Both the position numbers and the translations under genes were made by a program. Positions 11,684-13,250 of a stretch of DNA of 60,652 bases are shown here, one piece after another. How positions within the stretch are numbered: position 1 is the first letter of the stretch; the number at the start of each line of letters is the position of its first letter. Under the pieces are notes generated by a model. It did not search any database and had not been told where the DNA came from. It saw only the letters and a list, made by a program, of their open reading frames with translations. Source of the stretch: an uncultured Eisenbergiella sp. (GTDB taxonomy: Bacteria > Bacillota > Clostridia > Lachnospirales > Lachnospiraceae); assembly GCA_904392525.1 (NCBI GenBank), contig CAJFMW010000001.1, positions 1 through 60,652 on the forward strand, written 5' to 3'.

Positions 11684-11717
11684 TAAAAAGACCACAATCA
11701 AAGAAATTGATTGCGGC
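11684..11717 (-). terminator. Intrinsic terminator of the left (pel) riboswitch expression platform
   Basis: Minus strand CCGCAATCAATTTCTTTGATTGTGGTCTTTTT; its 5' arm overlaps the 3' end of the aptamer. Confidence 0.8.
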
Positions 11718-11805
11718 CGGACGACCTTATGCAGCAGTCAGATGGCCACATATCAGGTTCCAAAGCTTTGCGTCCCAGCATTTCTGCAGGTTTGCCTTTC
11801 AAAAT
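11713..11805 (-). ncRNA. c-di-GMP-I (GEMM-I) riboswitch upstream of the pel operon
   Basis: Minus strand TTGAAAGGCAAACCTGCAGAAATGCTGGGACGCAAAGCTTTGGAACCTGA...GGTCGTCCGGCCGC; conserved GGCAAACC / GAAA loop / GGGACGCAAAGC / GGTC core. Confidence 0.92.
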
Positions 11806-11860
11806 ATGTACTTATCTGCCAAACCATTCCGTTTTCGCAGAGTATCTTACTCTGCGAAAA
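11753..11860. repeat. Left 108-bp inverted repeat (IRL) of recombinase cassette
   Basis: Reverse complement matches 13067..13174 at 107/108 positions by manual alignment. Confidence 0.95.
11832..11860. other. Putative tyrosine-recombinase crossover site, left
   Basis: TTTTCGCAGAG-TATCTTA-CTCTGCGAAAA: 11-bp perfect arms around an asymmetric 7-nt centre. Confidence 0.65.
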
Positions 11861-11888
11861 GTTATTTATAAACCATTAATATAAAAAG

Positions 11889-11917
11889 ATTTTACAGTTC
11901 TCTTTCTGATTTGTCAA
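11889..11917 (-). promoter_or_regulatory. Consensus sigma-A-type promoter inside the invertible segment, directed toward pel
   Basis: Minus strand TTGACA-(17)-TAAAAT. Confidence 0.85.
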
Positions 11918-12065
11918 GTTTTCTCCTCGAAATGCCTTAAAAGAGCACGAACGGTAAATGATTTTAAGTCTATAACTACTAAGAAAAAGCTGGTTTCTGT
12001 TTTTACATCGATTTAGTTAACATCAATATTGTTGTAAAACATAAATTCAAACCAGGGAGCTAAAT

Positions 12066-13058
12066 ATGAAACCCAAAAAGGAAAGCACTTCGGAAAGCTT
12101 TTGTAAAGCAAGTGAACTATGGATGGAAAGCGTTGGACCCAGATTAAAAGAATCCAGTATTGTAAAATACAGGAATATCATTGACGTTCATCTGCTTCCT
12201 TATTTTAAGGAGATGGATATGTCAGATATTAACAGCACTGATATTCTGGCTTTTTGTAATTCGCTTCTTCAGCCCGACGAAAAGAATGAATCAGGACTGG
12301 CATCCAAAACAATATCAGATATTTTAACTGTATTGAAGTCCATCTACAGATTTATTTCTGAAAAAAACAGCTTTGAGAATGTAATCCGAGACTGGCCGTC
12401 TGTCGGTCAGACCCATCGTCCGCTTAGGATCTTAAGCTTGCCTGAACAACACAAATTAAGTCTATATCTGTATAAACATCTTACGCCATGCAATCTCGGA
12501 ATATTACTCTGTCTGTATACAGGAATACGGATTGGAAAAATCTGCGCTTTAAAATGGATGGATATTTCAGTTGAAGAAAAGATAATACAAATAAGGAAAA
12601 CAATGCAGAGGATTCAATGCCGCAACACGGAACCTCCAAAAACGACCATACTTATTTCATCTCCGAAAAGCAGCTGTTCCATTCGAAGTATACCCATTCC
12701 AGATGAACTTTCCTGTATGATTGTTAAATATCGGAAATCTGATGACAGCTTTTTTCTCACAGGAAAAGAAAATTATTTTATAGAGCCGAGAACCTTGCAG
12801 AACCGTTTTAAGGCCATTACAGCAGCATGCGGAATATCGGATGCAAACTTTCATTCACTTCGCCACACGTTTGCCACTCGCTGCGTGGAATTGGGATTTG
12901 ACCTAAAAAGCCTCAGTGAGATTCTGGGACATGCCAACGTCAATATAACACTGAACCGTTACGTTCATCCTTCCCTGGAACAGAAAAGAAGAAATATGAA
13001 TCTTCTTTCTGTATATTTGACCGCAGACAAACTGGCAGAAAGGGACGGTAATGGCTAA
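12066..13058 (+). CDS. Tyrosine recombinase/integrase (putative DNA invertase)
   Basis: Catalytic motifs TGIRIGK, HSLRHTFATR, LGHANVNITLNRYVH; AGGGAG SD upstream; encoded wholly between the inverted repeats. Confidence 0.93.
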   Translation: MKPKKESTSESFCKASELWMESVGPRLKESSIVKYRNIIDVHLLPYFKEMDMSDINSTDILAFCNSLLQPDEKNESGLASKTISDILTVLKSIYRFISEKNSFENVIRDWPSVGQTHRPLRILSLPEQHKLSLYLYKHLTPCNLGILLCLYTGIRIGKICALKWMDISVEEKIIQIRKTMQRIQCRNTEPPKTTILISSPKSSCSIRSIPIPDELSCMIVKYRKSDDSFFLTGKENYFIEPRTLQNRFKAITAACGISDANFHSLRHTFATRCVELGFDLKSLSEILGHANVNITLNRYVHPSLEQKRRNMNLLSVYLTADKLAERDGNG

Positions 13059-13066
13059 GTTGTTTG

Positions 13067-13095
13067 TTTTCGCAGAGTAAGATACTCTGCGAAAA
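13067..13095. other. Putative tyrosine-recombinase crossover site, right
   Basis: TTTTCGCAGAG-TAAGATA-CTCTGCGAAAA; spacer is the reverse complement of the left site's. Confidence 0.65.
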
Positions 13096-13174
13096 CGGAA
13101 TGGTTTGGCAGATAAGTACATATTTTGAAAGGCAAACCTGCAGAAATGCAGGGACGCAAAGCTTTGGAACCTGA
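13067..13174. repeat. Right 108-bp inverted repeat (IRR) of recombinase cassette
   Basis: See 11753..11860. Confidence 0.95.
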
Positions 13175-13213
13175 GATGCATTTGTAGCGGAATGTATATG
13201 GTCGTCCGGCTGC
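13127..13213 (+). ncRNA. c-di-GMP-I (GEMM-I) riboswitch upstream of the glycosyltransferase operon
   Basis: GAAAGGCAAACCTGCAGAAATGCAGGGACGCAAAGCTTTGGAACCTGA...ATGGTCGTCCGGCTGC. Confidence 0.92.
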
Positions 13214-13250
13214 AATCATAAGTTTGTATATGGTTGCAGCCTTTTATTTT
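13208..13250 (+). terminator. Intrinsic terminator of the right riboswitch expression platform
   Basis: GGCTGCAATCATAAGTTTGTATATGGTTGCAGCCTTTTATTTT; 5' arm overlaps the aptamer 3' end. Confidence 0.85.

Follow-up and report, generated by a model that had tools for sequence, protein, structure and literature searches.

The flagellar switch of Salmonella is an invertible segment that contains both its own serine recombinase gene (hin) and a promoter, from which one flanking operon is driven. In the sapA inversion of Campylobacter fetus, one promoter in the invertible segment alternately serves S-layer genes on opposite flanks; this segment is not known to encode a recombinase and has no riboswitch. 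In the cmr switch of Clostridioides difficile, the recombinase is encoded outside the element and RecV acts in trans. Here we describe a locus related to these switches in a 60,652-nt stretch of DNA (called the window) from an uncultured Eisenbergiella sp., a gut bacterium of the Lachnospiraceae (contig CAJFMW010000001.1, assembly GCA_904392525.1). A tyrosine recombinase gene and a predicted strong promoter are enclosed by two inverted recombination sites, and on either side an aptamer for cyclic di-GMP (c-di-GMP) faces outward, the left one to a pel polysaccharide operon and the right one to a second operon rich in glycosyltransferase genes. We consider it likely that the locus is a self-encoding promoter inverton in which the output of each orientation is gated by a c-di-GMP riboswitch.

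The locus resembles the Hin switch in that the recombinase gene and the promoter are both in the segment, but the Hin recombinase is of the serine type, one operon is driven and no riboswitch is involved. With sapA it shares a single promoter that alternates between opposite flanks. The cmr switch (Cdi6) also joins inversion and a c-di-GMP riboswitch at one locus; however, a class II riboswitch is located upstream of the switch there and c-di-GMP raises the expression of one operon independently of orientation (PMC8844915), whereas the window has, on each of two sides, a class I aptamer placed in series after the promoter. The pdcB switch (Cdi2), a 174-bp element controlling one phosphodiesterase gene, likewise ties promoter inversion to c-di-GMP physiology (PMC9286219), but it has neither bracketing aptamers nor a recombinase inside. 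As for the left operon, Bacillus cereus ATCC 10987 has the same biosynthetic system with a PelD extended by an epimerase-like domain; its c-di-GMP control acts through PelD, and unlike in the window, no riboswitch is mentioned (PMC7112168). According to an initial annotation of this DNA, no self-encoding inverton bracketed by two aptamers of the same second messenger is known to have been described. Searches of the open-licence literature turned up no inverton with two flanking aptamers, which is weak evidence of absence; what they did find were the C. difficile switches cmr and pdcB and numerous invertible promoters that control a single operon.

The recombinase gene (12066-13058, plus strand) is an intact open reading frame of 330 aa within the segment, complete and placed between inverted repeats as first annotated. 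It matches PF14659 and PF00589 (the latter at 88.8 bits), and the putative catalytic residues R155, K201, H263, R266, H289 and Y299, placed by motif, are all present. The cut-offs for FimB/FimE-type invertases are not reached (24.2 versus 221 bits for PRK09870 and 19.3 versus 222 bits for PRK09871), and the N-terminal domain is Phage_int_SAM_3. The gene ends 9 nt short of the right recombination site. Each site is a 29-bp palindrome around an asymmetric 7-nt spacer. The left site (11832-11860) is TTTTCGCAGAG-TATCTTA-CTCTGCGAAAA, with its spacer at 11843-11849, and the right site (13067-13095) is the inverted copy, with spacer TAAGATA at 13078-13084; both are perfect and their spacers match exactly.

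The inverted arms containing these sites are considerably longer (11749-11860 and 13067-13178, 112 nt at 98% identity). The 108-bp repeats reported initially, 11753-11860 and 13067-13174, are indeed identical at 107 of 108 positions, but as read from the sequence the long repeat is a composite: 29 bp are the recombination site, and the other 79 bp are a copy of the leader and the aptamer 5' half. Identity continues outward past the site edge for 80 nt in the window compared with 0-1 nt in the other loci of the recombinase family, and on this ground the recombination site itself is taken to be only about 29 bp. The leader and aptamer 5' half do lie in the outer part of each repeat and face outward (11749-11831 on the minus strand and 13096-13178 on the plus strand, near-identical to each other); however, they are outside the recombination site and would not move with the segment.

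Evidence that such sites work in pairs comes from the recombinase family, which is widespread in gut Clostridia and of which no description was found in the open-licence literature. Relatives of the recombinase in Ruminococcus, Lachnospiraceae and other Clostridia are likewise flanked by inverted sites, usually one at 300-500 nt upstream of the gene and the other at 50-140 nt downstream of it. The spacers vary from locus to locus, yet left and right are reverse-complementary within one locus: 7/7 inverted identity was found in 18 of 22 distinct loci, while a mean of 0.86 and a maximum of 6 were obtained when the right spacers were shuffled among loci 20,000 times. Such a pattern is the mark of recombination partners. 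Between different assemblies, the recombinases of Ruminococcus locus L029 and of L054/L055 are 73% identical and both flanking neighbourhoods are on swapped sides. Since the second flank gives matches that are either weak or short (39% over 95 aa and 79% over 33 aa), this case rests mainly on the first flank and the gene order. Several more swaps involve one flank, for example L049 versus L052 (93% over 1.1 kb). By comparison between assemblies, segments of this family do appear to invert.

The promoter, TTGACA-17-TAAAAT at 11917-11889 on the minus strand, is inside the segment and faces pel. It is the only 11/12 consensus match in the region, in agreement with the single strong leftward promoter named at the outset; promoter-like matches are otherwise not in excess (4 versus 4.4 expected by chance), and no plus-strand promoter above 9/12 consensus occurs in 11600-13400. 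The locus was compared in three species, namely that of the window, G010 of the same genus and a third one, G005, and in all of them the hexamers, their spacing and the distance to the site are kept while the surrounding sequence is 67-70% alike. One strong promoter within the segment is thus predicted to fire outward through the left site. In the proposed mechanism, the recombinase would bind the palindromic arms of the two sites and exchange strands in the 7-nt spacer, and so invert 1.2 kb carrying its own gene and the promoter, with the outer half-sites and both aptamers remaining in place. As assembled, the promoter would fire left, through the left site and into the pel leader. A flip would map position x to about 24927-x and bring the promoter to 13010-13038 on the plus strand, the same position as predicted initially, from which transcription would run rightward and enter the leader of the operon rich in glycosyltransferase genes; this transcript would cross the site, a 33-nt leader and then the aptamer.

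Both aptamers are full-length matches to the c-di-GMP-I family (RF01051) and exceed its Rfam gathering score of 35, with 48.2 bits in the pel leader (11709-11806, minus strand) and 59.0 bits in the second leader (13121-13217, plus strand), so the outward aptamers claimed on both sides hold up. An intrinsic terminator overlaps the end of each (11690-11718, minus strand, and 13208-13241, plus strand). In four leaders analysed in silico, the aptamer-closing GGCC or GGCT doubles as the outer four base pairs of the terminator, which is weakened from between -16 and -20 kcal/mol to between -7 and -10 kcal/mol once the four shared bases are occupied. Because the closing helix and the terminator share these bases, bound c-di-GMP should favour read-through, and each of the two leaders resembles an ON switch for c-di-GMP. 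The aptamer and terminator of each leader would then set the read-through, bound c-di-GMP blocking the terminator and turning the operon on. With both leaders of the ON type, an operon would be expressed under the condition orientation AND c-di-GMP. A simple motif search found no aptamers upstream of pelD in other genera. Among the matches listed for 401 family genomes, the one divergent aptamer pair, with a distance of about 6.5 kb, has flagellin among the genes between its members, but no recombinase.

The long arms have a history of their own, which was traced by comparison of five leaders. Between the leaders of pel orthologues, identity reaches only 33-47%, against 107/108 between the two arms of the window, while the 3' side of the window pel aptamer is closest to G005 (24/24 to the G005 pel aptamer, 21/24 to its own partner arm). 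The downstream platform of the leader follows the latter pattern (71% to G005 versus 51% to the partner arm). From this combination we conclude that the arms have recently exchanged sequence, as far as a point within the aptamer; this may have come about by gene conversion, by homologous recombination or by duplication of a part. A crossover within the aptamer was rejected, the recombination sites being outside it. The lone difference between the arms in the stretch from site to aptamer disrupts one stem base pair of the pel aptamer (11766-11795, minus strand), and this mismatch may lower its affinity. The exchange could also be held to favour a different explanation, in which the palindromes act in the leader as RNA hairpins, either regulators or terminators, and any inversion occurs through RecA between the long arms. 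The palindromes do fold stably in the leader. Nevertheless, matched inverted palindrome pairs surround dozens of recombinase genes that lack long arms and whose leaders are unrelated, and the palindromes decay where the recombinase is absent (G005) or the spacer pairing is lost (site C of G010), which makes this explanation very unlikely.

The two related species show what may become of such a locus. In G010, the recombinase is 72% identical to that of the window and the order is pel, aptamer, recombinase, a hydrolase gene, aptamer, a complete polysaccharide operon whose products include Wzy_C and WecG proteins, and then the same EAL and GGDEF genes as in the window. Both aptamers face outward, so the arrangement is conserved in a second species. 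There are three sites, of which A and B are a matched inverted pair and C is unmatched, the spacers of B and C being mismatched, and next to site B there is another promoter. We infer that the pel promoter is fixed in G010 and that a flip between A and B would turn the second promoter towards the polysaccharide operon. The first gene of that operon (L023:17054-18616, minus strand) encodes a MotA/ExbB-like membrane part fused to an EAL domain, which suggests c-di-GMP feedback from inside the switched operon. The pel leader of G005 contains this pel promoter as well, together with one aptamer and a single site that has the spacer of the window, but no recombinase or second operon is present, and EAL and GGDEF come directly after. 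We read this locus as a relic since the lone site has no obvious use, an ancestral stage being the alternative. The three species may be successive stages: a shared toggle, a split switch and a locked relic.

The lack of a recombinase between the promoter and the EAL gene in G005, together with a phage-integrase-type tyrosine recombinase having terminal inverted repeats, might instead suggest a small mobile element, i.e. an inserted transposon- or cassette-like unit whose control of the operons is incidental. G005 retains the promoter and one site, however, and is therefore not a clean empty site; the promoter is kept at the segment edge in two species; and inverted sites with spacers matched within but different between loci suit inversion; they do not fit excision, nor a transposition in which the ends stay constant. 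We give this explanation hardly any credence.

Several observations weigh against a working toggle in the window. The promoter faces pel in all three species. Opposite-orientation copies, which the initial annotation had suggested looking for in relatives, did not turn up: no flipped copy of the window locus was found in the genome, metagenome and genus sets, near relatives being either not retrieved or in the same orientation. The recombinase segment of G010 and the lone site of G005 look unable to turn pel off. The second operon has damaged genes, including a frameshift in a T7 run and truncations. No terminator was seen between the recombinase gene and the right leader, and for this reason a recombinase transcript may enter the right operon in the present orientation. 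Finally, the source assembly is a fragmented draft of 290 contigs, 82% complete. Some of these points, along with the loss of the recombinase and second operon in G005 and the mismatched B and C spacers in G010, would suit a former toggle now locked with pel on, where pel is favoured by selection and the second operon is decaying although the recombinase and its sites are still there. On the other hand, the window has perfect sites with exact spacers, intact catalytic residues and recently homogenised arms, and a close protein cluster, 92% identical to the recombinase, has 80 member sequences, indicating that the gene is maintained in related strains. We therefore regard a locked toggle as unlikely, and the locus as a real and probably functional switch. 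That a flip turns pel off and the other operon on, as first proposed, agrees with the architecture, the second species and the inversion seen in the family, but the off state of the right operon may be leaky. In its fullest form, which we hold to be somewhat less likely than not, the locus would be a self-encoding toggle whose one promoter is routed into one or the other of two riboswitches that c-di-GMP turns on: a stochastic flip would pick the surface polysaccharide and c-di-GMP would gate it, and the sites would then diversify, one output becoming separately switchable (G010) or lost (G005).

The left riboswitch leads into pel as annotated. The operon (108-11697, minus strand) encodes a PelD-like protein, a small membrane protein, two DUF2194 proteins, PelF (356 bits, NF038011), PelG (437 bits, PF16933) and a CotH-like protein, and the PelF, PelG, DUF2194 and CotH matches confirm it as pel, while PelF, PelG and a PelD-type protein together mark it as a Gram-positive pel operon; the PelD-like protein is extended by an N-terminal epimerase-like domain (a weak epimerase match). 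The second operon (13327-18126, plus strand) is glycosyltransferase-rich as described, but it is damaged, with genes lost or broken. It encodes PssD, PssE, a GT4 protein, a VanZ remnant joined to GT2, an O-FucT-like protein and a putative glycosyltransferase. The GT4 gene (14315-15221, plus strand) is frameshifted and truncated, and the VanZ-like remnant is fused to the GT2 gene (15355-16557, plus strand). The T7 run where GT4 loses frame (14580-14586) could reflect slipped-strand variation, decay or sequencing error. PssD, PssE and other glycosyltransferases are the only functions recognised, with no flippase, polymerase or priming transferase of a Wzx/Wzy system in this operon. An EAL-domain phosphodiesterase (18275-19051, plus strand) and a diguanylate cyclase with a GGDEF domain (19227-20756, plus strand) follow within a conserved neighbourhood. 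Since neither a terminator nor a promoter was seen in the interval that separates the second operon from the EAL gene, the phosphodiesterase may be co-expressed with that operon. Elsewhere in the window is a 6S RNA gene (51848-52033, plus strand, 62 bits in Rfam).

Other members of the family have different neighbours. In loci L026-L068 (Ruminococcus, Clostridia and metagenome), self-encoding invertons adjoin WXG-like operons, agr-like regulator operons and surface protein genes. A conserved leader of 100-150 nt next to the site is common to several of these loci, and Rfam gave no known RNA at the conserved leaders adjoining the Ruminococcus sites. In the genus of the window, L011 and L008 have more distant family recombinases with matched inverted sites beside, as seen by eye, a CpsB-like or sugar-epimerase-like gene; therefore, the genus may have further surface-sugar loci under such a switch.

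Random phase variation is usually kept apart from the response to a signal, while here the two would act in series at one locus for two alternative products. If this is true, biofilm formation would stay signal-dependent while populations hedge on the choice of matrix. With three species as possible successive stages, the evolution of such circuits would become testable.
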